Shown piece after piece: positions 2,240 through 36,851 of a stretch of DNA of 36,851 nt. Under the pieces are notes generated by a model. That model was given only the letters and a program-made list of their open reading frames with translations. It was not told where the DNA came from and did not search any database. Both the position numbers and the translations under genes were made by a program. Numbering within the stretch: position 1 is the stretch's first letter; every line of letters begins with the position of its first letter. The stretch is from a virus: IMG/VR virus record IMGVR_UViG_3300019935_000007, positions 1 to 36,851 of that record. The stretch is one strand, 5' to 3'.

Positions 2240-2428
2240 ATGAATAGCATAAATTTATGTAATTGTGATACTTGCGCTCCATATGCACCTCAAGGTATAT
2301 GTGCACCAATGATGCCAATTGGCTGGTGTGTTAAGTGTGGAAAGCCTGAAAATCAAGAGCAGTTAGACAAACTTAACAGTGAAGTTCAAAAAGAAATAAG
2401 AGTACATCAAGTGCTTAATGATTTGTGA
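2240..2428 (+). CDS. Cysteine-rich small protein, 62 aa
   Basis: Cysteines at 7, 9, 12, 21, 30 and 33 lie in the first 33 residues, with a final CVKCGKP knuckle, which suggests metal binding. The last 25 residues look helical. An in-frame ATG further upstream lies inside the preceding gene; GAAGGG at 2228-2233 supports the start at 2240. The stop codon overlaps the left half of a CRP-like site that begins the next transcription unit. Function unknown. Confidence 0.6.
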   Translation: MNSINLCNCDTCAPYAPQGICAPMMPIGWCVKCGKPENQEQLDKLNSEVQKEIRVHQVLNDL

Positions 2429-2466
2429 CCAACATCACAGCAACACTAAAGAATAAAAGCTAATAT
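2424..2466 (+). promoter_or_regulatory. CRP-like class II promoter, copy 1
   Basis: TGTGA (2424-2428), N6, TCACA (2435-2439) matches the full CRP consensus half-sites. After G2440 and 19 nt comes a weak -10 (TAATAT at 2461-2466, one base out of register with the other copies). It lies between gene clusters and would serve the gene at 2565. This is the least convincing -10 of the five copies. Confidence 0.5.
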
Positions 2467-2578
2467 GAAGTTAACTAAAGCGCTAGTGATACTAATGATT
2501 AACGTTTCACTAGCGATTATAATAGTGATTGTATCTGTTGAATTTATAAAGTTAGGAGTGAGTTATGGAAGTATCTAA
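2465..2578 (+). CDS. Possible tiny membrane peptide, 37 aa
   Basis: The reading frame encodes one hydrophobic span (ALVILMINVSLAIIIVIVSV) and overlaps the next start by 14 nt. Against it: there is no good ribosome-binding site, and the CRP-like promoter just upstream would start transcription a few bases inside the frame. It could be translated only from a longer read-through transcript. Several similar tiny membrane ORFs occur in this genome, which is why it is listed. Confidence 0.3.
   Translation: MKLTKALVILMINVSLAIIIVIVSVEFIKLGVSYGSI
2481..2515 (+). repeat. 9-bp inverted repeat
   Basis: CGCTAGTGA at 2481-2489 is perfectly repeated in inverse as TCACTAGCG at 2507-2515, with a 17-nt loop. 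It lies just downstream of the CRP-like promoter and 50 nt before the ATG at 2565. It could act as an operator on DNA or a hairpin in the 5' leader. Confidence 0.5.
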
Positions 2579-3374
2579 AGAAAGAATGATTGAGTTAGTT
2601 AAGAATGAGCCAGAGGGTGCTACTAACTGGATGTTTAGTGACTCCTGTGACATTGAAGGTTATATGAAAGATGCTGATGCTTTTTATTCATCAGGGAAGT
2701 GGTGGGTGTACATCGATTATAGTGGTGATGATACCATCAAACTAGACTACTCAGTATTAGAATATAAACAAGTGTCTTGGGATGAATATGATAAAGGAAT
2801 GAGAGAGGCAATGAAGAAGATTGCTTTGATTGTTGGTAAAAAGTTCGCTGTTGATGTTAGTTATCAAGATTTACCGGATCATGTTTCTGAATATGTCAAA
2901 GGGCTGTTTGAGAGAATTGCAAAGCTAACTCCTACTGATGATAAACCAGTATACACAAAAGAAATGCAAGAGGCTGGTGAGTTGCCGCCTGTTGGGGCTC
3001 CTTTTATGTACCTTGCTGATGAGGGAATAAAAAAAGAAGATGGTGGATTTACTTCTGGATATTGGGATGAATCAGTTGTTATAGCCTATAGCGATGGAGG
3101 TCTATTCTGGGTTAGAGGTCACGGAATGCAAGAGGTTCAGACGCACAGAATACAAGAGGTTCAGGCGCACAGAATAAAGCCTATAGACCACCGCACAGAC
3201 CAAGAAAAGCCGATTGATGAAGCTGCTTATGATTTGTATTGCCATTTCACTAACTCTAACGCAGTGGATGCAACATGTATGAGCTCTTACGAGTTTAATA
3301 TGAGCCCGGCATCAAGCAAATGGATAGCCATCGTAGAAAAAACTAACTACCGCAAAGGTGAATCAAATGCTTAA
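2565..3374 (+). CDS. Hypothetical phage protein, 269 aa
   Basis: A soluble acidic protein with tryptophan-rich patches (SSGKWWVYIDY about 42-52; GLFWVRGHGMQEVQ about 179-192). The last 70 residues are a separable segment beginning IKPIDHRTDQEK. A 24-bp tandem duplication in the middle repeats the peptide QEVQ(T/A)HRI. The start has GGAGTGAG six nucleotides upstream. Its own CRP-like promoter and a 9-bp inverted repeat precede it. The 235-aa gene at 28184 is of a similar general type (tryptophan-rich, small modules), but I cannot show homology. Confidence 0.65.
   Translation: MEVSKERMIELVKNEPEGATNWMFSDSCDIEGYMKDADAFYSSGKWWVYIDYSGDDTIKLDYSVLEYKQVSWDEYDKGMREAMKKIALIVGKKFAVDVSYQDLPDHVSEYVKGLFERIAKLTPTDDKPVYTKEMQEAGELPPVGAPFMYLADEGIKKEDGGFTSGYWDESVVIAYSDGGLFWVRGHGMQEVQTHRIQEVQAHRIKPIDHRTDQEKPIDEAAYDLYCHFTNSNAVDATCMSSYEFNMSPASSKWIAIVEKTNYRKGESNA
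3129..3176 (+). repeat. 24-bp tandem duplication inside a gene
   Basis: Bases 3129-3152 and 3153-3176 are identical except one A/G difference (CAGACG versus CAGGCG). The unit is in frame, adding eight residues (QEVQTHRI, then QEVQAHRI). The near identity suggests a recent slippage duplication. Confidence 0.85.
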
Positions 3375-21448: not shown

Positions 21449-23562
21449 CAGTAACAGCAACGAATAGAAAAAATAATTTCATAACTAATGGTGTGACCGT
21501 TGACTTTACGTTCACATTTGCCATAACCAATATCCAACAAGTTAACGCGATAACAATCCTTAACGGTGTTGAAACGCCATACACCAACTTTTCAGTGGTG
21601 CAATCCCCATCAACCGAGGGAGGTACTTTAACAACAAATGATGTCCTTGATGGTGTAGAGCTACTTATTTATCGCGACACTTCTCTAACTCAGCAGGTTG
21701 ATTACCAAGATGGTGGTAGATTCCCAGCTGACTCTCACGAGCAGGCGCTTGATAAGCTAACCTTGCAAAACCAAGACCAGCAGGATGATTTAAATCGATC
21801 ACTTAAAACGAAGATTGGTGATGATTCTAATTATGAAGTTGGTAACCTTGAAAGTGGGAAGTTGGTGCAAGTGGTCGGTAATGAGTTGACTACGGACGGA
21901 TCCCAAGATACCACGGGTTACACAGATATACAGGCAATTGCTAGATCTCTTAATATTTCATTCTCAGCTGTCATCTACTCAACAGACACGACTACCGTTT
22001 TAGATAACGTTCAATACATCTACGACATGTCAAACGAAACCACATGGAGCAAGCCAAGCGGCGTGCAAGCTGGTGATGTTATTATTTCGGTTGTAGATGA
22101 TCAACTCGAAGTCACGTCTGGTACTTATACGATGATCGCAGCTATACCTGCCCTTATCGATAACGCAGATCTTCATGATACTCTAGCTGGCGCAAAGTCT
22201 AGAGTTGATGCTGTTAGCATCCCGTTAAATCCAATGTCTGTTAGAATTATAGACAGAGCAAATGCAATTATTGAATACACAACAGGTGAGACAGTTGATA
22301 ATAAAAGCGTTTTTCAGCATGACACGTTGCCACTACAATTAAAATTCATATCAACATCAGTGAAGCATGTTGCTTGCTTTGGTGATGACTCACTGCAACA
22401 AACTCACGACGATTACAACGAGTATGTTAATAGGCCTGAGAATAAATCCGTTGCTGTTTACCAGTATGTTGAGGCTGATACAGTAGGGGCTTTAGGTGGT
22501 AAATTTAATATAAAGCCGCAGAATAATTATGCTCAAATAGCTAATGATGTACACACATGTTGGATCGGATATGGTGGTCATGAGGATTTTACAAATGTAA
22601 TTGGAACAATACCGGGTAGCGGTGCCAGCTACTCCGGCGTGCTTGGTTATGACAACAAAACTGACGCACTGGCTACAGTCATGTGGCATTTTCACGGCAA
22701 GATCAACACCGCAGCAGATCACCCAACTATGATCGGCGGTTCTTTTGCTCAAATCCTTGGTGGTAGCTACACCGTTATACTTGGGGGAACTCAAAATACA
22801 ATAAATGGCGGCAACTATACGGCTATATTGGGAGGTAGGGATAACACCATTAACGCAGCCAGCGGTGCAACAATTGTTGGCGGCAATGGGAATATAAATG
22901 GAAGTCCTCATAGTGTTATTGGCGGGGGTCTTGCAAATTTGATAGGCACTAGCGGAGATCAAACTGTTATCGCCGGCGGAGGTCAAAACACTGCAACCCA
23001 AGAAGGAACAACAATATCGGGAGGGCGAGGGAATACAGTTTCAGCGGCATACGCCAACATTACTGGTGGTCAGGATAATGAGGCGAGCGGGAGTTATAGC
23101 CGCGCTGGTGGGCGTGAGTCTGTGACACAATACGGTTGCGATGTTTGGGCGTCAGGTGGTTTTAGTGGTGTCGCAGGGTCTGCTCAGCTATTCAATTTTG
23201 TCACTAGGGTAATAACCACGGATGGCGTTGAGGCAAATCAATATTTAGACGGTTCTGCGGTCAAACTTGAAATACCTGAAAACTCAGCATGGGCCATTAA
23301 AACACAATGCATTGCAAGCGATGGAACAGACAGAGCTGTTTTTGAATTTAACAGTTTGATTTATCGAGGCGCAGGCTCAACAGCCTTAAGCCCAACACAA
23401 TCAGATCCAGTTACAGTTATACATCAAACAGCTGGCGCGTCAACTTGGTCGCATAGAATAACAGTGCCATCCAGCGGAGCTATCAACATTAAAGCCACTG
23501 GTGAAGCAGGTAAAAATATTAAATGGGTAACACGTTGCACTGCAACTCAATTATTGGATTAA
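21445..23562 (+). CDS. Tail fibre with T7-type N-terminus and beta-roll shaft
   Basis: 705 residues. Residues 1-125 follow the T7 tail-fibre attachment domain: VDFTFTFAI, EGGTLTTNDVLDGVELLIYR, TSLTQQVDYQDGGRFPADSH and ALDKLTLQNQDQQDDL. Residues about 420-580 consist of repeats of the form I-x-GG-x-x-N-x-I-x-G (TMIGGSFAQILGGSYTVILG and following), like trimeric left-handed beta-roll fibres of the YadA-head kind. The last 120 residues form a beta-rich tip domain that probably binds the receptor. No intramolecular chaperone or S74 peptidase is visible. Confidence 0.88.
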   Translation: MTVTATNRKNNFITNGVTVDFTFTFAITNIQQVNAITILNGVETPYTNFSVVQSPSTEGGTLTTNDVLDGVELLIYRDTSLTQQVDYQDGGRFPADSHEQALDKLTLQNQDQQDDLNRSLKTKIGDDSNYEVGNLESGKLVQVVGNELTTDGSQDTTGYTDIQAIARSLNISFSAVIYSTDTTTVLDNVQYIYDMSNETTWSKPSGVQAGDVIISVVDDQLEVTSGTYTMIAAIPALIDNADLHDTLAGAKSRVDAVSIPLNPMSVRIIDRANAIIEYTTGETVDNKSVFQHDTLPLQLKFISTSVKHVACFGDDSLQQTHDDYNEYVNRPENKSVAVYQYVEADTVGALGGKFNIKPQNNYAQIANDVHTCWIGYGGHEDFTNVIGTIPGSGASYSGVLGYDNKTDALATVMWHFHGKINTAADHPTMIGGSFAQILGGSYTVILGGTQNTINGGNYTAILGGRDNTINAASGATIVGGNGNINGSPHSVIGGGLANLIGTSGDQTVIAGGGQNTATQEGTTISGGRGNTVSAAYANITGGQDNEASGSYSRAGGRESVTQYGCDVWASGGFSGVAGSAQLFNFVTRVITTDGVEANQYLDGSAVKLEIPENSAWAIKTQCIASDGTDRAVFEFNSLIYRGAGSTALSPTQSDPVTVIHQTAGASTWSHRITVPSSGAINIKATGEAGKNIKWVTRCTATQLLD

Positions 23563-23900: not shown

Positions 23901-24218
23901 TTATTGCTTGCCTTTATTTTTAAATGCGGCGTAAATACCACCAGGAGCAACAGCCGCCATTGCCGCCATCGGGTCGTAACCTTCATGAACCATGTAAAAC
24001 GCCAATCCATACCCTAGATAACTGGTTAGCTGACGTCCCATCTTGTGCAGAGCATCAACCCAAGGAACCGTTTTAGTTTGCAGCTCGGTCATGTAAACCT
24101 GCTCGCCAAGCTTTTGCAGTTCAGTTCGAAGCTCATTAGCCTTATCTTTATCTTCAATAAACTCACTTGCTAAATCTGCCACTTTGTTAAATGGATTGAT
24201 GAAATCTATAAAGCTCAT
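23901..24218 (-). CDS. Holin-like protein (3TM/GTA holin type), 105 aa
   Basis: Starts MSFIDFINPFNKVADLASEF, followed by a charged helix (DKDKANELRTELQKLGEQVY) and a C-terminal hydrophobic region (QLTSYLGYGLAFYMV; MAAMAAVAPGGIYAAF). This layout is seen in the phage/GTA 3TM holin family, which forms the lesion that releases endolysin. AGGTGG precedes the start. It is the last gene of the minus-strand lysis operon, adjacent to the M15 endolysin. The second span is weak, so the topology is uncertain. Confidence 0.7.
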   Translation of the reverse strand: MSFIDFINPFNKVADLASEFIEDKDKANELRTELQKLGEQVYMTELQTKTVPWVDALHKMGRQLTSYLGYGLAFYMVHEGYDPMAAMAAVAPGGIYAAFKNKGKQ

Positions 24219-24219
24219 A

Positions 24220-24564
24220 TTACCACCTAGCTTTTATTGAACGCGTATCAATATGCGTGAATGAATTGTATTTACCAATCCCGTATGATTCAGGAGCATG
24301 GCCATTTAAAAATGAGTGCACCTCAATTGGGTCAACACCTTTAACAACTATATCAGCAGCACGACCAAGTAAATGTTGGCTTTTCTTGCCACCGCCTACC
24401 ATCGTGTTATGTATCTCACATCGGCAAGATGAGTTGATAATTACTGGCTTATCAAAATGCTCACGTACAGTTGTTAACACTTGCACCAACTCAAAATCTA
24501 CCGTATTAAACCCACAGCCACACTTGCATGCGAATTCATCACGACTAAAATATTTATTAATCAT
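24220..24564 (-). CDS. Endolysin, M15 family peptidase
   Basis: 114 residues with the zinc ligands of the M15 (VanY/D-Ala-D-Ala-type) fold: SQHLLGRAAD (H64, D71) and THIDTR (H104). It also carries the N-terminal cysteine-rich FACKCGCGFN motif common in phage M15_3 enzymes. It cleaves peptide cross-links of peptidoglycan. No signal peptide, so release depends on a holin. The start overlaps the upstream stop (ATGA), and the holin-like gene follows at once. Confidence 0.9.
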   Translation of the reverse strand: MINKYFSRDEFACKCGCGFNTVDFELVQVLTTVREHFDKPVIINSSCRCEIHNTMVGGGKKSQHLLGRAADIVVKGVDPIEVHSFLNGHAPESYGIGKYNSFTHIDTRSIKARW

Positions 24565-24722
24565 TTCAAAATACCCTCTTCTCTCAAAGACTCTTCAAAC
24601 TTGCCATCATCAAATATCCAGCAAAGCAAAAATGACGCCCCGCCAGCCATGAGCAAACCGAATATAGCACCGACAAAAACCAGTGTATCGGGACGTGTAA
24701 ATAAGTTAGTTAAATGTTCCAT
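24561..24722 (-). CDS. Single-span membrane protein in lysis operon, 53 aa
   Basis: One long hydrophobic stretch (LVFVGAIFGLLMAGGASFLLCWIF, about 14-37) and an acidic tail (DDGKFEESLREEG). It ends by ATGA overlap with the endolysin gene and starts 2 nt after the upstream gene. A holin, antiholin or inner-membrane spanin would fit the place, but the tail is too short for a typical spanin. No lipobox is present. Confidence 0.6.
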   Translation of the reverse strand: MEHLTNLFTRPDTLVFVGAIFGLLMAGGASFLLCWIFDDGKFEESLREEGILK

Positions 24723-24723
24723 G

Positions 24724-24906
24724 TTAAACCCAAATTAATATTAGTGATGATGCAATTATTGTTAATAACGACCCAAGAAAAACAGCGACAACAAAACTAC
24801 CAAACACACTCTTCAACTCGTCACGGTCGACCATTCTAATTACACCTGCAAACACCAAAGCAAAGACAAGGCATGTCTTAATTACCTTCCAAAGTATAAT
24901 TTCCAT
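24724..24906 (-). CDS. Two-span membrane protein, first gene of lysis operon, 60 aa
   Basis: Two hydrophobic segments (TCLVFALVFAGVI, 11-23; VFGSFVVAVFLGSLLTIIASS, 34-54) joined by a charged loop RMVDRDELKS. GGAGGG lies just before the ATG. As the first gene behind a CRP-like promoter in the lysis operon it is a candidate holin or lysis regulator. No family recognised. Confidence 0.6.
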   Translation of the reverse strand: MEIILWKVIKTCLVFALVFAGVIRMVDRDELKSVFGSFVVAVFLGSLLTIIASSLILIWV

Positions 24907-24929: not shown

Positions 24930-24971
24930 AATATAGCACCCACCACATTAAATACAGTGAGCGCTGTCACA
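24930..24971 (-). promoter_or_regulatory. CRP-like class II promoter of the lysis operon, copy 5
   Basis: On the minus strand: TGTGA (24971-24967), N6, TCACT (24960-24956), G, then exactly 19 nt and the -10 TATATT (24935-24930). The geometry equals that of the plus-strand copies at 27735, 34453 and 36673. No -35 is visible, as expected for activator dependence. It directly precedes 24906 and follows the ssb stop. Confidence 0.65.
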
Positions 24972-24976
24972 ATTAC

Positions 24977-25492
24977 TTAAAACGGTATATCATCATCAAA
25001 ATCACTAGCTGGCTTATTAAAACCTTGCTGCGGATTCGGGTCTGGTTGTCTAGCTGGTTGTTGATTGTTTTGCTTTGGAGCTTGCTGCTGATGCGCCTGA
25101 TTATAACCACCTTGACTAGGAGCTGATTGCTGACCGCCTTGGCGCGAACCAATCATTTGCATAACACCATTAAAACCTTGCACAACAATCTCAGTTGTAT
25201 ATCTATCTTGTCCGCTTTGGTCTTGCCATTTTCGAGTTTGCAGCTGACCTTCAATGTAAACTTGCGAGCCTTTTTTTAAATATTGCTGCGCTACTTCTGC
25301 CAGCTTTCCGAATATCGCAACGCGGTGCCATTCCGTTTTTTCACGCTGTTCACCAGTTTGTTTGTCGCGCCACGTCTCCCCTGTTGCGATGGTTAGGTTT
25401 GCAACAGAACCACCATTAGGGAATGCGCGCATCTCTGGATCGTTACCTAGATTACCCATTACAATTACTTTATTTACGCCTTTGCTCGCCAT
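24977..25492 (-). CDS. ssb: Single-stranded DNA-binding protein
   Basis: 171 residues. The OB fold occupies about 1-112 ([58 protein letters not shown]). It is followed by a glutamine/proline-rich linker and the acidic tip DFDDDIPF, which in bacterial SSBs docks recombination and replication proteins. Full bacterial length, so it may replace or supplement host SSB. GAGGAG precedes the start, which overlaps the upstream stop (TAATG). Confidence 0.95.
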
Positions 25493-26076: not shown

Positions 26077-26933
26077 TAGAATACACCTCCATTTTCAAGT
26101 TCATTCTCGTAACTTCTCATAGCCCATTCTGGCAACGAAACCATTTCAACACCTGAATTATTTGTAACTTTTTCAGGATTGTTTTTGTAATAAACAAAGT
26201 CATGAAGCAATGTTTTATATTCATCACGACCGATCTGTTTTGATATGTCATCTAAATAAACAACTGCAACTTCATGTGGGTATTTCTCTTCCACAAAGAT
26301 AAAGTAAAACTGATTTAGTTCATGACCGGTAATTGCCTTGTAAGCATCAGAGTATAAAGCGTCTTGCATATGATACCCGTACTTAAATATTGTTTTTGAT
26401 ATCTCCTCAAGACTCACAGATTGCGTTTTCTTTAAATCAATACCAATGCCACAGTTAGTTAATTTATCGAATCTATGGCGCAGTTTGACACCTGTATCTT
26501 CATCCTCATGAAAGCCGCTTACTTCATAATTACCATGCAAAGATAGCAATTCCATTGCTGCTTCATTGTTAGCTATAGCTTTCTTCATGCCAATCACGTT
26601 TAATGCATCTTGACCGTTGATAACTTCCATCTCTGGATTATCTTTAACAGCATCCTTGTAAGCCTTCAGTGTCTTTGTTTTTACCTCTGGCATTAAAAGA
26701 TATGTATCATTAAATTTAACAGGCTCTAACACAGCGCAGTGAATCGCAGTTCCAATTTTCATAGCTGGAGTTTGCGAAACTTTTACGTTGCTAAAAAACT
26801 TAAACGGTGAAGCCTTCAATACTGACAAGCTTGACTTGGAAATAAAGCCCTTTGTTGTGTGGTAATAATCTTCTGGCATGTCAGAGACATAACCATTCAA
26901 TTCAACACCTACTTTAAACTCACTAACTTTCAT
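26076..26933 (-). CDS. RecE/RecB-type PD-(D/E)XK exonuclease
   Basis: 285 residues. Motifs of the RecB/RecE exonuclease fold are visible: GTAIHCAVLEP (H65) early, RHRFD (D156), IDLKKT (D166, K168) and QDALY (Q190, Y194), the QxxxY signature. This is the DUF3799-like class that degrades one strand of DNA ends to prepare annealing. It is far shorter than E. coli RecE (866) but equals its catalytic C-terminal domain. AAGGG lies before the ATG. It heads an operon with an unrecognised protein and SSB. Confidence 0.85.
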   Translation of the reverse strand: MKVSEFKVGVELNGYVSDMPEDYYHTTKGFISKSSLSVLKASPFKFFSNVKVSQTPAMKIGTAIHCAVLEPVKFNDTYLLMPEVKTKTLKAYKDAVKDNPEMEVINGQDALNVIGMKKAIANNEAAMELLSLHGNYEVSGFHEDEDTGVKLRHRFDKLTNCGIGIDLKKTQSVSLEEISKTIFKYGYHMQDALYSDAYKAITGHELNQFYFIFVEEKYPHEVAVVYLDDISKQIGRDEYKTLLHDFVYYKNNPEKVTNNSGVEMVSLPEWAMRSYENELENGGVF

Positions 26934-27063
26934 TGCTTAAACCCTTCTTGATTAAAGTTCTAACCGCTAAAGATAAGTTTCCCTCGCAGTGTTCATCTGC
27001 GTATTTCTGCACAACTTCCTTTAACTCTTTTAGTCTAATATTCTGACCTGTATTCTTATTCAT
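26923..27063 (-). CDS. Small ribbon-helix-helix-like DNA-binding protein, 46 aa
   Basis: The sequence NIRLKELKEVVQKYADEHC followed by GNLSLAVRTLIKKGL has the strand-helix-turn-helix spacing of Arc/CopG-type repressors. It is the first gene of the recombination operon, overlaps the exonuclease gene by 11 nt, and its start is about 30 nt from the divergent promoter pair. This makes it a likely autoregulator of that region. GGGGTT is a modest ribosome site. The fold is inferred from pattern only. Confidence 0.55.
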   Translation of the reverse strand: MNKNTGQNIRLKELKEVVQKYADEHCEGNLSLAVRTLIKKGLSNES

Positions 27064-27064
27064 T

Positions 27065-27094
27065 TGTAACCCCTTGTGTGTTGACTTAGTTACA
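27065..27094. promoter_or_regulatory. Inverted repeat, candidate operator
   Basis: TGTAAC (27065-27070) is inverted as GTTACA (27089-27094). The right half overlaps the first base of the minus-strand -10 and lies in the spacer of the plus-strand promoter, so a bound protein could repress both. The RHH-like protein encoded alongside is the obvious candidate binder. Confidence 0.4.
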
Positions 27095-27109
27095 TTGTAG
27101 TGCTAAATT
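27081..27109 (+). promoter_or_regulatory. Sigma70 promoter toward the RuvC-like gene
   Basis: TTGACT (27081-27086, 5 of 6), 17 nt, TAAATT (27104-27109). Predicted start about 27116, 26 nt ahead of the 27142 gene. It overlaps the minus-strand promoter. Confidence 0.6.
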
Positions 27110-27123
27110 ATATTCGACGTCAA
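27094..27123 (-). promoter_or_regulatory. Sigma70 promoter of the recombination operon
   Basis: Minus strand: TTGACG (27123-27118, 5 of 6), 18 nt, TACAAT (27099-27094, 5 of 6). Predicted start about 27087, followed by the RHH-like gene at 27063. It shares about 15 bp with the oppositely directed promoter, so only one can be occupied at a time. Confidence 0.6.
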
Positions 27124-27141
27124 CAACAAAGAGTAAATAAA

Positions 27142-27282
27142 ATGAAATTTAACGAGTGGCTTATTAAGCACGAAGAAGAATTGTGTGAAAGCTTTTACGA
27201 GGTCGCTTGCAAGTCGTCATTTAACGAATATTGCAACGAGCAATACAAACTATACAAGCAAAGCGAATTGGAGAATATGTAA
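27142..27282 (+). CDS. Small acidic protein, 46 aa
   Basis: An acidic helical protein (NEWLIKHEEELCESFYEVAC) with three cysteines and a tyrosine-rich end. Its stop overlaps the RuvC-like start by one base (TAATG), so it is probably a coupled leader gene of the resolvase. The ribosome site is weak (AGAGTAAATAAA). Function unknown. Confidence 0.55.
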   Translation: MKFNEWLIKHEEELCESFYEVACKSSFNEYCNEQYKLYKQSELENM

Positions 27283-27722
27283 TGAGTAAAGTAATCATAG
27301 GTTGTGACCCTGACAGCAGTAAGCACGGTATTGCTATGTACATAAACGGAAAGCTTGAGCTACTTGAATGCATGACTACAATCAACGTGTATCGTTTAAT
27401 GTTGAAATACCAGGAGTGCGATATAGAGCTGCACATTGAAAACGTATGTGGCGTTAGTAATAGTGGCTTTCATTACGGCCGCAAAGACTCGCAAGCAGTG
27501 CGAGCTAAGAAGTCAGAAAACGTTGGCATGTGTAAGCAGGCGCAGCGCGAAGTAGAAGCAATGGCTAATGACCTTGGGGTTAAGGTTATTCACCATAAAA
27601 TCAGCAAGCAATGGAAGCATGAACCAAGTAAATCAGCGTTTAAGCGCATTACAGGCTGGACAGGTAGAAGTAACGAAGATTCTCGCAGTGCTGCTTATAT
27701 GGGTTTTCAAGGTTTGCGGTAA
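27282..27722 (+). CDS. RuvC-like Holliday junction resolvase
   Basis: 146 residues. The RNase H-like active site is visible: D9 in IIGCDPDSSKHGIAMY, E53 in HIENV, and the C-terminal E132/D133 in SNEDSRSAAYMG. NVGMCKQAQREVEAMANDLG between them is typical of RuvC-family phage resolvases. They cut four-way DNA junctions in concatemers before packaging. The first ATG within the preceding gene at 27231 is rejected. Slightly shorter than E. coli RuvC (173), as in many phages. Confidence 0.85.
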   Translation: MSKVIIGCDPDSSKHGIAMYINGKLELLECMTTINVYRLMLKYQECDIELHIENVCGVSNSGFHYGRKDSQAVRAKKSENVGMCKQAQREVEAMANDLGVKVIHHKISKQWKHEPSKSAFKRITGWTGRSNEDSRSAAYMGFQGLR

Positions 27723-27734
27723 TTAAGCTAGCAA

Positions 27735-27776
27735 CGTGACAGCCATCACAGCAAATTAAACTCAACAAACTATAGT
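27735..27776 (+). promoter_or_regulatory. CRP-like class II promoter, copy 2
   Basis: CGTGA (27735-27739), N6, TCACA (27746-27750), G, exactly 19 nt, TATAGT (27771-27776). Predicted start about 27783, which is the A of the next ATG, so either the first gene is leaderless or the transcript mainly serves the genes after it. Confidence 0.6.
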
Positions 27777-27782
27777 GAGCAT

Positions 27783-27932
27783 ATGAATAAACAAACAGAA
27801 CGCGAGATGATTGAATCCATCGAGCTAGTATCAGTATTAACATGCAGCCCGAAAAACTGCGAGAATCTTAAAGTTATAGCCAAGCAGATATTGGAGAAAG
27901 TGAGTGATGGAAATCCACAATCTAACAAGTGA
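27783..27932 (+). CDS. Small hypothetical protein, 49 aa
   Basis: A helical, soluble protein (TEREMIESIELVSVLT, then ENLKVIAKQILEKV) with two cysteines. The predicted CRP-like promoter start coincides with its ATG, so translation would be leaderless or rely on read-through RNA. It overlaps the next gene by 26 nt. Function unknown. Confidence 0.45.
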   Translation: MNKQTEREMIESIELVSVLTCSPKNCENLKVIAKQILEKVSDGNPQSNK

Positions 27933-30247: not shown

Positions 30248-30880
30248 ATGAACCAACTAGCAAATAACAACTTAACAATGAGTAGTCGTGAGATTGCTGC
30301 AGTAACAAAACTTCGTCATGACAATGTTAAGAGAACAATGGAAACGCTGCAGCAAAAGGCGTTAATTACTTTTACTCAATCTGAGGAAAAGGGCAACGGT
30401 AGGCCTGCAGTTGTTTACCAAGTAAATAAACGTGATAGCTATGTTTGCGTGGCTCAACTTTCACCAGAGTTTACTGCAGTATTAGTTGATCGATGGCAAG
30501 AGCTCGAGCAATCAGAAGCGCCAGCTTTACCATCAAACTACCTTGAAGCTCTCGAGCATTTAGTTGAAAAAGAAAAGCTATTACTCGAGCAAGCGCCTAA
30601 AGTGGCCTTTGTTAAAAACCTAGTTGAACGCGACAACTTGCTAACAGCTACACAAGTAGCGAGTAAGCACAAAATGAGCGCGGTCAAGATGAACAAACTA
30701 CTTGCTGAACTTAATGTTTATAATAAATCTGTTAAGCGAGTCAAAGTTTTTAATACGTGGTTCGTGGAGAATGGTTACGGTGAAATGAAAAAGACTCAGC
30801 TAGGTTACGACCAAGCAATGTTTACGAATGCGGGTGAGCTGTGGATTTATGAGCAGTTTATTAGCGAAGGTATTATATAA
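30248..30880 (+). CDS. Rha-like/KilAC phage antirepressor
   Basis: 210 residues. The N-terminal 75 match a Rha-type domain (MSSREIAAVTKLRHDNVKRT, YVCVAQLSPEFTAVLVDRWQ). After an acidic linker the C-terminal KilAC (ANT) domain begins near 115 (LLTATQVASKHKMSAVKMNK, then FNTWFVENGYGEMKKTQ). Such proteins inactivate phage repressors or alter early gene expression. GGAG lies before the ATG; the frame continues upstream within the preceding gene but is not used. No cI-like repressor gene is present in this window. Confidence 0.85.
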   Translation: MNQLANNNLTMSSREIAAVTKLRHDNVKRTMETLQQKALITFTQSEEKGNGRPAVVYQVNKRDSYVCVAQLSPEFTAVLVDRWQELEQSEAPALPSNYLEALEHLVEKEKLLLEQAPKVAFVKNLVERDNLLTATQVASKHKMSAVKMNKLLAELNVYNKSVKRVKVFNTWFVENGYGEMKKTQLGYDQAMFTNAGELWIYEQFISEGII

Positions 30881-30892
30881 ATTAAAAGGGGA

Positions 30893-31045
30893 ATGATTGT
30901 GGCGAAACAACATAGCACGCCTTACTTGAGAAAACTCTCTAAAAGTGATTTGTTACGCATTCTAGAAAACATGGATGAATACGGGCAATGCACTATAAGT
31001 AGAGTTCGCTATATACTAACCGATGACAGACATTCTAATAAGTAG
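30893..31045 (+). CDS. Small basic protein, 50 aa
   Basis: KQHSTPYLRKLSKSDLLRIL and a second helix (TISRVRYILTDDRHSNK) give a small basic helical protein. AAGGGGA overlaps the ATG at 30893; the same site is better spaced for the GTG at 30899, so the true length may be 48. Unrecognised; DNA binding is possible from charge. Confidence 0.5.
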   Translation: MIVAKQHSTPYLRKLSKSDLLRILENMDEYGQCTISRVRYILTDDRHSNK

Positions 31046-31054
31046 AGAGTATTT

Positions 31055-31339
31055 ATGAAAAAAATAAGCACAATACTACAACTTCCTATTGTTGACATAT
31101 ATGTAAGTGAAAATAAAAAGCATGTTAACACTGACACTAGAAGGCACAAAGGGTGCGCTTTATTTGATGATGGGAAAGCCGCTGTGATAGTAGCTGTGAA
31201 TAATCACGATAAATTGGTTGAGCTATTAACAAGAGTGAGCAAGGCAATAAAAACCTGCAAAAGCGAAATTGAGCTTGCAGATGAAATAACCGAGTCATGC
31301 CACGATATACAAATGGCACTTGACGAAATTAATAAGTAG
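31055..31339 (+). CDS. Hypothetical protein, 94 aa
   Basis: The first half is strand-rich (ILQLPIVDIYVSENK; GCALFDDGKAAVIVAV), the second helical (HDKLVELLTRVSKAIKTCKS, then ADEITESCHDIQMALDEI). AGAGAG is the ribosome site. Same start context as the following gene, probably co-transcribed from the antirepressor operon. No family recognised. Confidence 0.6.
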   Translation: MKKISTILQLPIVDIYVSENKKHVNTDTRRHKGCALFDDGKAAVIVAVNNHDKLVELLTRVSKAIKTCKSEIELADEITESCHDIQMALDEINK

Positions 31340-31348
31340 AGAGGATTT

Positions 31349-31555
31349 ATGGCAAGTTCAAATTTTGGGTTTGAAGCGAGAATAGACGGCGAGATAAATC
31401 ACGACGTAATTGGCTTCGAGCAAATACCAAGCGGAATGAGTTTTACTGGGTCGGTGGCAACTGTGCCAGTAAAACCAGATTTTAAACTAAAGCTTGCAAA
31501 CGGGGTAGAAAAAATATTCATAAACGGAATGGTGGAGATTACAGCTTGTTTATGA
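31349..31555 (+). CDS. Hypothetical protein, 68 aa
   Basis: A short beta-rich protein (FGFEARIDGEINHDVIGF; SFTGSVATVPVKPDFKLKLA; KIFINGMVEITACL). AGAGAGGA precedes the ATG. Last gene before the terminator at 31578. Unrecognised. Confidence 0.6.
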   Translation: MASSNFGFEARIDGEINHDVIGFEQIPSGMSFTGSVATVPVKPDFKLKLANGVEKIFINGMVEITACL

Positions 31556-32274: not shown

Positions 32275-33069
32275 ATGAAGTGGATTAAACACGACACAGA
32301 CGCGAATATGGACGCGAAACTACAAGAGGTATTGCTTGATTATGGACTGGAAGGCTACGGGCTTTACTGGTACTGCATTGAGTTGATCGCTGGCAAGGTT
32401 GATAAGGACAACGTGACATTTGAGCTTGAGCATGACGCGCGAATAATTGCGAGAAATGTTGGTTCAACAGCTCAAAAAGTTGAAGAAATGATGCGTTATT
32501 TTGTAAATATTGGTCTTTTTGAGGACTCGCAAGGGGTGATCACATGCCTAAAGCTAGCTAAAAGACTTGACCAATCCATGACAAGTAACACGCAAATGCG
32601 TGAAATCATTCAGAATTTTAAGAGTCATGACGCAATCATGACTGAGTCAGCAAAACCCATGCAAGATAAGAATAGATTAGATAAGAATAGATCTTTAAAC
32701 AATATGTCTGATTCTGGCGAATCAAACGCGCCACAGAAAAAACGTTTATCAGTTCCATATTCAGAAATTGAATCGTTGTATAAAGAGATTTTAGTTAACA
32801 CTGGTGAAGTAATGAGTATGGTCAACGTTCAAACGTTAACTAAAGAGCGCAAGACTCGCATAAAGCAATATTGGACTGCCAATGGCGACAAAGGGCTTGA
32901 AGGTGTTAAAGCGTACTTTCAATACTTATGGAATAATCGCAATAATCATTCATGGTTGTTTGGTGGTGGTAATCGTGGATGGAAAGCTGACATTGAATTT
33001 ATCATGCGTGAAAAGACAGTAACTAAAGCGCGTGAAAACACATTGGGAAATTGGAGTGAACAACAGTGA
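32275..33069 (+). CDS. Replication initiator-like protein (DUF4373/Lin1244-type N-terminus)
   Basis: 264 residues. MKWIKHDTDANMDAKLQEVL followed by YGLEGYGLYWYCIELIAG is the diagnostic start of the DUF4373/Lin1244-Lin1753 domain, a winged-helix replication domain. The C-terminal half contains KERKTRIKQYW and FQYLWNNRNNHSWLFGGGNR, seen in replication proteins that recruit a helicase. Its stop overlaps the DnaB-type helicase start (GTGA), as in phage O-P-like pairs. An origin may lie in this gene, but I see no iteron array. Confidence 0.8.
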   Translation: MKWIKHDTDANMDAKLQEVLLDYGLEGYGLYWYCIELIAGKVDKDNVTFELEHDARIIARNVGSTAQKVEEMMRYFVNIGLFEDSQGVITCLKLAKRLDQSMTSNTQMREIIQNFKSHDAIMTESAKPMQDKNRLDKNRSLNNMSDSGESNAPQKKRLSVPYSEIESLYKEILVNTGEVMSMVNVQTLTKERKTRIKQYWTANGDKGLEGVKAYFQYLWNNRNNHSWLFGGGNRGWKADIEFIMREKTVTKARENTLGNWSEQQ

Positions 33070-34445
33070 GTATTGAATCTGAGAATTATGTAATCGGCGG
33101 TCTTTTAGATCATCCTGAATGCTTTGCTGAATCCAGCGGTGTTTTAACTGCTGAAGATTTCTCTTCATCGATAAACCGAAGCGCATACAAAGCAATTGAA
33201 GTCATGACAGAGCGTGGCGACGGTGTGGATTTTGCAACTGTAAGCTCGTACATCATTGACAATGGCGGAGAGGATCTGTTTGGGGCGCTTGGAGAGCTTG
33301 TCAGAGCGTCCACCAGCGTGAGCAACATACGTACCCATATAAAGAGGGTTAAGGGTAAATCAATCGAGCGAGAGGCTCTGTTTAAGCTGTCTAACGCGAT
33401 ATCCATAATTAACGGTGAAGGTGAAACTTCAGAGAAGATGGAGAGCGTATTAGCTGAAGTTAGCTGTCTTGAGGCTAACGACACTAGCGGGAAACCTTTA
33501 TTCAAAACCATGCGAGAAGTTTACCAAAAATTAATGGCAGAGTTAGACGAGCGGCAAGACTCTAGTTTGCCAAATGGTATTTCAACTGGAATTGAAACGC
33601 TTGACATGATTCTTGGTGCTCGTGGATTAAGACCGCGAGACTTCATGATTATCGGTGCTCGACCTGCTGGTGGTAAGTCCATGGTATCCGCAAAGATGGC
33701 TTTACATGTAGCCATTGAGATGCAAAAGCCCGTGTTAGTTTTCTCTCTTGAAATGGGTGATACAGAATTAATGCAGAGATTTATATCGCAAATGGGGCAT
33801 ATTAATTCAGGGGTTTTTTACGACGGGGCGCAACTTTACGAAAAAACAGGATTAATTCACAACGCTGCAACTCCGATCGTAAATAGCAGCTTGGTAATTG
33901 ATGACCGACCATCTCTAACCTTTGCCCAGCTTGCGAAGAGTGCTAGACAGTTTAAAAAGCTGCACCCTGACGCTGCAATGATTGTTCTTGATTACATCAT
34001 GCTAATGAAAGTCGATTCACAAGGTAAGCGACAAGATCAGGCGTATGGTGATGTTTCGCAATCGCTTATTGCTTTGGGCAAGGAGTTGAATGTTGTAATG
34101 GTTATTCTATCTCAGTGCAACAAGAGTTGTGAATCAAGAAATGATAAACGGCCTATTGCCAGCGATCTAAAAGAGATTTCACAACTTGAAGCCGATGCAA
34201 CTCACGTGATGATGCTTTTTAACGAATCGGCATACAACGAGGACACGCCAATGGGTAAGACTGTTGAGTTAATTCTAAGGAAGAATCGTCATGGCGGCTT
34301 AGGCACTGGATATCAGGAAATCAAAGGTGGCTGGATGGAAGATATCAGCCATGGTGAATTAAACTCAAGACTTAAAAAAGTTGAAGAGAAAAATGAAGAA
34401 AAGAATGGTTATTCATACGGTTCTGGTGGTGGATTCAACGGTTAA
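33066..34445 (+). CDS. DnaB-type replicative helicase
   Basis: 459 residues. The N-terminal DnaB domain (SENYVIGGLLDHPECF) is followed by the RecA-like core: Walker A GARPAGGKS (197-205), SLEM (227-230), Walker B MIVLDY (305-310), Q350 in VILSQCN and the RKNRHG arginine finger (405-410). The end is glycine-rich. It unwinds DNA 5' to 3' ahead of the phage fork. It starts with GTG, overlapping the initiator stop and preceded by GGAGTGA. Length equals bacterial DnaB. Confidence 0.93.
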   Translation: MSIESENYVIGGLLDHPECFAESSGVLTAEDFSSSINRSAYKAIEVMTERGDGVDFATVSSYIIDNGGEDLFGALGELVRASTSVSNIRTHIKRVKGKSIEREALFKLSNAISIINGEGETSEKMESVLAEVSCLEANDTSGKPLFKTMREVYQKLMAELDERQDSSLPNGISTGIETLDMILGARGLRPRDFMIIGARPAGGKSMVSAKMALHVAIEMQKPVLVFSLEMGDTELMQRFISQMGHINSGVFYDGAQLYEKTGLIHNAATPIVNSSLVIDDRPSLTFAQLAKSARQFKKLHPDAAMIVLDYIMLMKVDSQGKRQDQAYGDVSQSLIALGKELNVVMVILSQCNKSCESRNDKRPIASDLKEISQLEADATHVMMLFNESAYNEDTPMGKTVELILRKNRHGGLGTGYQEIKGGWMEDISHGELNSRLKKVEEKNEEKNGYSYGSGGGFNG

Positions 34446-34452
34446 ATAAAAC

Positions 34453-34494
34453 TGCGACACGCATCACAGTAAATAATTAACGTGATGCTATATT
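34453..34494 (+). promoter_or_regulatory. CRP-like class II promoter, copy 3
   Basis: TGCGA (34453-34457), N6, TCACA (34464-34468), G, exactly 19 nt, TATATT (34489-34494). GCATCAC (34461-34467) is also inverted as GTGATGC (34482-34488), between the site and the -10. Start predicted about 34501, ahead of the 34526 gene. Confidence 0.65.
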
Positions 34495-34525: not shown

Positions 34526-35548
34526 ATGAGTAAAGAATTATTAGTAATCGAAAATGTAAAGTTAGTTCCTTTTTTTACAAAAGGAGATTCTATTGATGAA
34601 ACTCTAGCAAAGATCGAAGCTGAAGCGCTGGCTTTTGTTGCTGGCGATTTGTCATTACTTAAAAACAGAAAAGATGTAACCGCAATGGTTACAAAAGTTA
34701 CAAACTCCAAAACTTACTTAGAAAATAACGGCAAAGAGCTAGCGGCTGAATACAAATTAATCCCTAAGGCTATTGATGCAAACCGCAAAAAAGTAAAAGA
34801 CTTTCTAACTGAGCTTCAAGCTAAAGTTCGCAAGCCGCTAACAGACTGGGAAGCGGAGCAAAAGCGCATTGCAGAAGAAAAAGCTGAAGCTGAGCGATTG
34901 CAGAAAATAGCTGATGAAATTGCATTCATGTGGGAATTTGCATGGACTGAAAACGAAGCTTTTGACAAAGCGAAAGAAGATGCACGACTTGCTGAAATTG
35001 AGCGTCAACGACTGCATGATGAAGAGGTCGCACGAAAAGCAACTGAAGTGGCAGAGGCAAAGGCTAAAGCTGAAATACAAGCAGCAAAAGACCGCGAAGA
35101 AGCGCAGCGTAAAGCAGCTATTCAAGCTGAGATTGACGCTCAACTTGCTGAAGAACGAAGAGTTGCGCAGAAAGAAGAATCCGATCGACAAGCCAAAATC
35201 GCAGAGCAGCAACGCATTGAACGTGAAAAGCAAATGGCTATCGAAGCGAAGCAGCGAGCAAAACAAGCTGAGTTAGATCGCATTGAAAGTGAGCGACAAG
35301 CAAAAATACAAGCTGAACAGGCAGCGGAGCAAGCTCGATTAAATGAAATTGCTCGCCAAGAAGCTGAAGCTAAAGCTGAGGAAGATCGCATCACAGCGAT
35401 TAAGGAGAATAAGGCTTACAAAAGTAAAATCTACAAGCAGTCCAAAGAGTGCTTAATGTTGGAGTGTGGTTTAACTGAAGAGCAAGCTAGGGCTGTAGTA
35501 AAGGCGATCGCTAGTAATAAAATCGCTAACTGCACAGTAAACTATTAA
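34526..35548 (+). CDS. Long coiled-coil protein, DUF1351-like, 340 aa
   Basis: The first 115 residues (NSKTYLENNGKELAAEYKLI, KKVKDFLTELQAKVRKPLTD) fit the phage DUF1351 family. A continuous charged coiled coil rich in A, E, K, Q and R follows from about 105 to 295, and a small C-terminal domain closes it (SKECLMLECGLTEEQARAVV). DUF1351 proteins accompany RecT/RecE-type recombination genes in phages, role unknown. It has its own CRP-like promoter and GGAGTGAGAG before the ATG. The coiled coil has no TM segment, unlike TolA. Confidence 0.75.
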   Translation: MSKELLVIENVKLVPFFTKGDSIDETLAKIEAEALAFVAGDLSLLKNRKDVTAMVTKVTNSKTYLENNGKELAAEYKLIPKAIDANRKKVKDFLTELQAKVRKPLTDWEAEQKRIAEEKAEAERLQKIADEIAFMWEFAWTENEAFDKAKEDARLAEIERQRLHDEEVARKATEVAEAKAKAEIQAAKDREEAQRKAAIQAEIDAQLAEERRVAQKEESDRQAKIAEQQRIEREKQMAIEAKQRAKQAELDRIESERQAKIQAEQAAEQARLNEIARQEAEAKAEEDRITAIKENKAYKSKIYKQSKECLMLECGLTEEQARAVVKAIASNKIANCTVNY

Positions 35549-36222: not shown

Positions 36223-36666
36223 GTGAGCATAACCCACATAAACACCGACAACTACGAAACCACTAGCGAGACGATAGCAAATCAGATAAACGATATAGTT
36301 AACGCTGGTGGTACTGCGGAAGTCAAAGTTAAAAAGCTGGAAAAGAAACGGTCAATACCAGCTAACGGTCAGCAGTGGGTTTGGTATGGGCAGATAGCTA
36401 AGTTTACCAGTACTGACGCTAAAACGGTTGCAGCAGAGTGTAAGATTGATTTTGGTTTACCGATACTGCTAAACGACCCTGATGTCGGTGATGTGCTCAG
36501 ATTTGCGCTGAGGGGCTTTGACAGAATGACGAGAGATCAGCAGATTAAATTTATATACGTTATCCAAGTTACAAGCTTAATGAACTCAAAGCAACACATG
36601 CAGTACAGGGATGATATTTTGTATTATTACAACACTCAGGGTTTAGCAATTGATTACCTCAAGTAG
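36223..36666 (+). CDS. Possible NinB-like recombination protein, 147 aa
   Basis: KKRSIPANGQQWVWYGQIAK followed by KTVAAECKIDFGLPILL and QVTSLMNSKQHMQYRDDI resembles phage proteins labelled NinB or related to lambda Orf, which help load recombinase onto SSB-coated DNA; the RSxxANxQxW core is the main similarity. It starts with GTG after GAGGTG. It is the last gene before the right-hand CRP-like promoter. The family call is tentative. Confidence 0.65.
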   Translation: MSITHINTDNYETTSETIANQINDIVNAGGTAEVKVKKLEKKRSIPANGQQWVWYGQIAKFTSTDAKTVAAECKIDFGLPILLNDPDVGDVLRFALRGFDRMTRDQQIKFIYVIQVTSLMNSKQHMQYRDDILYYYNTQGLAIDYLK

Positions 36667-36672
36667 TCGAAG

Positions 36673-36714
36673 TGTGAACCAAGTCACTGTTTAATATCTA
36701 GCAGTGGCTATAAT
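36673..36714 (+). promoter_or_regulatory. CRP-like class II promoter, copy 4
   Basis: TGTGA (36673-36677), N6, TCACT (36684-36688), G, exactly 19 nt, perfect -10 TATAAT (36709-36714). CACTG (36685-36689) is inverted as CAGTG (36702-36706) in the spacer. It precedes the gene that runs off the right edge. Confidence 0.7.
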
Positions 36715-36743: not shown

Positions 36744-36851
36744 ATGAAAACAGCAAATTTATCAATAACAGAAGTTATGAATAACGTTGAATCAGCGTTA
36801 ATGAATAAACGTGTTGATTACATGGGTGTTGAGTATTACGTAGGCGAGATT
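36744..36851 (+). CDS. N-terminal part of an unidentified protein (partial)
   Basis: Open from the ATG at 36744 to the window end, 36 residues (SITEVMNNVESALMNKRVDY). GCGGTAGAG lies before the ATG and a CRP-like promoter 30 nt further up. Reading on into the first bases of the window does not join it to the fragment at 2-88, so the two ends are not the same gene in a circle. Unrecognised. Confidence 0.55.
   Translation, partial: MKTANLSITEVMNNVESALMNKRVDYMGVEYYVGEI

Follow-up and report, generated by a model that had tools for sequence, protein, structure and literature searches.

CRP-like palindromes at class II promoter spacing before gene blocks of a marine phage

A short inverted repeat followed by a -10 element, at positions 27735–27776 of a phage genome and lying between a RuvC-like gene and a block of small genes, has four counterparts elsewhere in the same DNA, and this raises the question of which protein, if any, acts at them. 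The window, by which we mean the whole stretch of DNA analysed, is the IMG/VR record IMGVR_UViG_3300019935_000007 (36,851 bases), the gene set of which fits a short-tailed phage. It is probable, as judged from the sites and their setting in the sequence, that they are class II promoters activated by the cAMP-CRP of the host and placed before the middle and lysis operons. Below, we describe the sites and their neighbouring genes, their resemblance to CRP promoters, the other explanations that must be considered and the occurrence of similar sites in other phages.

The gene order of the window runs from terminase, a phrog_332 head-tail connector and tail proteins to leftward lysis, ssb and RecE-like genes; the rightward genes include those for RuvC, an antirepressor, Rha, an O-like replication protein, DnaB and NinB. 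Among named phages, the closest is Vibrio phage 1.182.O, a phage of Vibrio breoganii with a terminase 84% and a connector (portal) 72% identical to those of the window, and a contig from an uncultured virus (G001) is as close; a search for relatives seeded with DnaB gave no match. From these relatives, the host of this marine phage is probably a Vibrio-like marine gammaproteobacterium. The last gene (36744–36851) continues in frame past the right-hand edge and another reading frame is already open at base 1 (1–70), so that the record probably represents a circularly permuted genome that is nearly complete, with few bases missing at the ends of the contig. Stretches of approximately 500 nt lacking any evident gene occur in a similar place, before the terminase region, both in the window (approximately 860–1390) and in 1.182.O (L015, 36074–36590), and are possibly noncoding or packaging regions.

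The five sites and their neighbouring genes

The core common to the five sites is GTGA-N6-TCAC[A/T]G, with GCGA in one of them (34453). The site from which the question arose (27735–27776, plus strand) consists of the CRP-like palindrome CGTGACAGCCATCACA (27735–27750) and the -10 element TATAGT (27771–27776); it reads CGTGA-CAGCCA-TCACAG-N19-TATAGT and precedes the small-gene block, which starts at 27783. Six nucleotides separate the end of the -10 from the ATG at 27783 (27771–27785), so that the predicted transcript would be leaderless or begin at a later codon. A second site (34453–34494, plus strand), TGCGACACGCATCACA with the extended -10 TGC-TATATT (34489–34494), reads TGCGA-CACGCA-TCACAG-N19-TATATT; directly upstream is the gene for a DnaB-like replicative helicase (phrog_19; 33066–34445, plus strand), and downstream that for a conserved phage protein (phrog_1376; 34526–35548, plus strand). 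A third (36673–36714, plus strand), TGTGAACCAAGTCACT with the -10 TATAAT (36709–36714), reads TGTGA-ACCAAG-TCACTG-N19-TATAAT and is found between the NinB/Orf recombination gene ninB (phrog_7283; 36223–36666, plus strand), directly upstream, and the gene at 36744 that leaves the contig end.

On the minus strand (24930–24971), the palindrome TGTGACAGCGCTCACT (24971–24956) is followed by the extended -10 TGC-TATATT (-10 at 24935–24930), the site as a whole reading TGTGA-CAGCGC-TCACTG-N19-TATATT. It begins 5 nt past the stop codon of ssb, the gene for single-strand DNA-binding protein (phrog_44; 24977–25492, minus strand), and is the putative promoter of a leftward block (23901–24906, minus strand) comprising two small membrane-type ORFs, an M15-type endolysin-like ORF (24220–24564) and another membrane-type ORF, to which a lysis function is provisionally assigned from sequence and position. 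The ORFs of this block have relatives in G001 and in G006, an unrelated phage in which a family site is also located directly 3′ of ssb. The least certain member of the family (2424–2466, plus strand), TGTGACCAACATCACA, reads TGTGA-CCAACA-TCACAG and has, at a gap of 20, a weak -10, TAATAT (2461–2466), that overlaps an ATG; it precedes 2565–3374.

The first-pass annotation had described a shared motif lying exactly 19 nt from a -10. The motif is indeed present at all five sites and the distance holds at four of them, the exception being 2424. The -10s that it gave for the four best copies (TATAGT, TATATT, TATAAT and TATATT) are those read directly at the sites, and its statement that no -35 is visible agrees with a best match of 2–3 of 6 positions at every site (spacings 15–19). 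What is found is thus a sigma-70 -10 with a degenerate -35, as at class II promoters, the -10 at 2424 being the weaker one. The sites had also been placed between genes, and the five 42-nt sites together hold only five coding bases in a window of which approximately 7.7% is intergenic; the distance from the preceding stop codon to the site is usually 5–12 nt. The genome scan that the annotation had proposed (TGNGA-N6-TCACWG-N19-TATANT) returns three matches in the window against 0.00 expected. The core GTGA-N6-TCAC alone occurs four times in the window, always at a claimed site (0.44 expected). Furthermore, the best single spacing holds four sites, and in none of 200 Markov shuffles did more than one site fall at one spacing (maximum 1), the spacing being free over 14 values and one core mismatch being allowed.

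Resemblance to CRP sites and promoter geometry

A symmetric CRP matrix, independent of this phage, was made from a published table of V. cholerae CRP ChIP-seq sites, with the 96 entries visible there as input (PMC6050953). Scored with it, the five sites rank 1 (2424), 2 (36673), 3 (34453), 6 (27735) and 7 (24971) among the approximately 36,800 positions of the window and fall at the 81st–99th percentile of those visible ChIP sites; by these ranks, they carry the CRP-consensus palindrome of a class II CRP promoter. With the same partial set of sites, most of the top matches in three other phages (G005, G006 and G332, described below) are members of the site family, and the best matches in three relatives free of the family (L015, G001 and L016) are at the level of shuffled sequence. 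It should be noted that any protein recognizing a GTGA-N6-TCAC core would also score highly on a CRP matrix.

From the spacing to the -10, CRP is predicted to be centred at -40.5 or -41.5, according to where transcription starts. The E. coli promoter deoP2 is a CRP promoter, and the checked sequence upstream of deoC reads TGTGA-TGTGTA-TCGAAG-N19-TAGAAT, an arrangement and spacing identical to those of the phage sites. More generally, bacterial class II CRP promoters (deoP2 and galP1 of E. coli; murQP of V. cholerae, with its CRP site at -41.5; PMC10328515) resemble the phage sites in having a TGTGA-N6-TCACA-type palindrome, a sigma-70 -10 and no good -35. The sites in the window differ from these in belonging to a phage, in being present in several copies before successive operons and in their almost uniform spacing of 20 bp after TCAC[A/T], with a G following the palindrome.

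The extent of this difference can be seen from a control set of gammaproteobacterial genomes from the order of Colwellia and its kin. Counted as in that control, from the end of TCAC[A/T], the phage gap is 20 bp (equivalent to N19 after TCAC[A/T]G). The distance from TGTGA-N6-TCACA to TATANT in the host genomes has peaks at 20 bp (9 of 62 matches, some of them mutually orthologous) and 21 bp (14 of 62), with 1–5 matches at each of the other gaps; an earlier control using exact TATAAT had given 24 matches and a single peak at 21, to which the larger TATANT set adds 20. The phage families lie almost wholly at 20, whereas host promoters are more often at 21. The G that follows TCAC[A/T], confined to the promoter side, is almost invariant in the family phages. 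It is present at all five sites of the window compared with 14 of 62 host sites (6 of 14 at the host spacing of 21); in G006, where neither the gap nor the following base was imposed in the selection, each of the six exact promoter-facing palindromes with a 20-bp -10 has a G after TCACW. The base after the left TGTGA is preferentially C in the window and mostly T in host sites. The G after the palindrome occupies position 3 of a highly degenerate -35 (CWG) with a 16-bp spacer, and the sigma subunit may still read that single base there.

Two other types of site were considered. Lambda half sites read TATCAC...GTGATA, and a lambda-type operator was rejected on orientation. The FNR pattern (TTGAT-N4-ATCAA) is not seen at the window sites, which have GTGA-N6-TCAC (GCGA in one); FNR-like half sites are confined to G005 (TCAA) and G332 (TTTGA and TCAA).

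On the mechanism that we propose, a dimer of the host's CRP carrying cAMP would occupy TGTGA-N6-TCAC[A/T], adjoining the RNA polymerase footprint on its upstream side; it would be centred approximately 40.5–41.5 bp before the start site and would substitute for the -35 contact. Sigma-70 polymerase would then be recruited to a good -10 in the absence of a -35, with an extended TGn at two of the sites. Each site stands at the end of one gene block and would drive the next, be it the small-gene block, the post-helicase block, the post-ninB block, the leftward lysis block or, less certainly, the block before the terminase genes (from 2424). Expression of these blocks would be weak in a host supplied with rich sugar and strong in a carbon-limited one. 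We infer CRP binding and activation at the sites, and hence a dependence of middle and lysis transcription on cAMP.

Candidate regulators and other explanations

The first-pass annotation had offered either host cAMP-CRP or a phage CRP/FNR-type protein as the activator. The former, acting as a class II activator, is the better supported, on the grounds of the matrix ranks, the geometry, the lack of a -35 and the failure to find a shared regulator. The latter is not borne out: no CRP helix-turn-helix (PF13545) lies above the cut-off in the window, which is probably a near-complete genome, and a search of the window, G005, G006 and G010 gave sub-cut-off matches only, that in the window falling on the N-terminus of the antirepressor.

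There is nevertheless some room for another activator of similar specificity, whether encoded by the phage or the host, because the spacing of 20, the constant G and the C next to the left arm go beyond a generic CRP site. The preference for spacing 20 over 21, for G after TCACW and for C after TGTGA is specific to the phages and counts against CRP; also counting against CRP is that the closest relatives, with a similar gene order, do without the sites. The precedent for an activator at this position is Mor at the middle promoter of phage Mu (Pm), the site of which has a very similar layout: 5-bp inverted repeats on either side of a 6-bp spacer make up 16 bp that are centred at -43.5 and take the place of the -35 (PMC4390567). 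Pm thus resembles the window sites in having a 16-bp inverted repeat with a 6-bp spacer in place of the -35, and its -10 is activator-dependent; it differs in that its activator is phage-encoded and centred at -43.5, whereas a search for a Mor/C activator (PF08765) in the window, G005, G006 and G010 gave no match. The window does encode a candidate in the form of a PapB match (PF03333; 29750–30007, plus strand; 85 aa; 31.6 bits versus a cut-off of 29.4). PapB was not found, however, in G005, G006 or G010. Such an activator is, on balance, unlikely. As an observation in its own right, PapB represents a family of adhesin-type transcription regulators, met here in a phage.

The proteins common to the window, G005 and G006 are the antirepressor, the O-like replication protein and SSB, families that are also found in many phages without the sites. 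The antirepressor was rejected as the activator, since it has homologues in hundreds of phage records and the named phages sampled have no multi-site family; phage CRP (PF13545), Mor (PF08765) and PapB (PF03333) were rejected as a common activator, being absent, below threshold or not shared. The failure to find a dedicated regulator common to the window, G005 and G006 favours a host factor. A factor supplied by the host would be the simplest answer, and CRP is the factor whose sites these resemble.

It is less probable still, and we regard it as rather remote, that the palindromes are operators at which a repressor, bound at the -35 position, silences extended -10 promoters. Two of the five sites do have a perfect extended -10 (TGC-TATATT), which can function without a -35, the genome contains antirepressor and Rha genes, and promoters of phage T1 are repressed by cAMP-CRP (PMC6737242). 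The remaining sites, however, have neither an extended -10 nor a -35 and would be near silent unless activated, and a constant spacing to the -10 is expected of an activator but unnecessary for an operator. Finally, that the motif is a product of chance or a common gene-end sequence with no regulatory role, for which its absence from the closest relatives might be cited, is scarcely credible given the shuffles described above, the presence of sites on both strands, after unrelated genes and with differing flanks, and the recurrence of the arrangement in other phages.

Site families in other phages and known systems

The closest relatives, including Vibrio phage 1.182.O, were scanned and lack the sites despite a similar gene order; there is therefore no phylogenetic footprint of the window's own sites, and an element from other Vibrio phages, described below, was used instead. 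A scan of IMG/VR with the exact pattern found 27 contigs, by our estimate near the chance number, of which three have several sites: eight in G006 (up to two mismatches), five in G005 and three, weaker, in G010. The reversed pattern, as a control, gave none in these three. A further phage, G332 (IMGVR_UViG_3300020045_001541), was found by means of the common O-like replication protein. The IMG/VR phages G006, G005 and G332 have families of approximately six to nine sites each, at the same spacing as in the window. From the sequence of their structural genes, G005 and G006 appear to be long-tailed and contractile and G332 long-tailed, which makes them unrelated to the window in the virion module. 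A looser pattern scan of viral contigs showed, among the matches listed, only lone or paired matches in the 50 contigs checked, and 20 named phages, reached by way of an antirepressor, O-like or phrog_1376 gene, were all without a multi-site family. The half sites drift among the phages (TCAA in G005 and TTTGA in G332), to an extent that is within the tolerance of CRP as seen in the visible part of the ChIP-seq list and also compatible with another protein.

An element that reads TGTGA-N6-TCACAAAACAAAAATCAC...GATATAAT, also at 20 bp, is present in nine Vibrio phages as seven distinct sequences; the two examples examined closely, in 1.119.O and 2E1, have recT on one side and a divergent gene on the other, the latter being ninG in the annotation of 1.119.O. 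Among the seven distinct elements, the ten bases of the arms never change and each of the six in the spacer does, which is the pattern expected of a dimer that contacts the arms. The element is like the window sites in having TGTGA-N6-TCACA and TATAAT at the 20-bp spacing, and unlike them in being single-copy in each genome, in having A rather than G after the palindrome and in its position in a divergent gene region. The opposite strand also contains TCACAG, with a weak -10-like hexamer (TAGACT or TAAGCT) at a distance greater by one base (L207, 1660–1740, in 1.119.O; L208, 2680–2900, in 2E1).

Control of phage genes by CRP is already known from coliphage T1, in which host cAMP-CRP represses the pir, dam and recE promoters and lysis is linked to host metabolism (PMC6737242). 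T1 and the window would have in common the action of host cAMP-CRP on several promoters of one phage, predicted in the latter case; they differ in that the effect in T1 is repression, whereas the layout in the window predicts activation, and the phages are unrelated. A search of open-licence papers found no CRP-activated phage promoters or repeated activation sites before phage operons, T1 repression being the nearest case. It is an evenly balanced proposition that several structurally unrelated marine phages have each tied their middle and lysis operons to host cAMP-CRP through repeated class II promoters, such that replication-accessory and lysis genes form a phage-wide catabolite regulon gated by host carbon status. 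If CRP does drive the promoters, middle transcription and lysis would follow host carbon status; the phages may read the nutritional state of the host through these sites, and the supply of nutrients would be coupled in a simple way to the lysis of marine bacteria by viruses. The unrelated phages in which the arrangement recurs provide a ready comparative set.

Two minor features of these phages may be recorded. A single palindrome in G332 (23448–23515) is accompanied on each strand by a -10 at 20 bp (23474, plus; 23489, minus), possibly a divergent pair of class II promoters served by one site. Repeat-rich proteins are encoded in the middle regions of G006 (30861–31511, minus strand) and G005 (26684–27349, plus strand), the repeats being of the GNGNTGDWNAG type and the pentapeptide ANLxxADLxx type.
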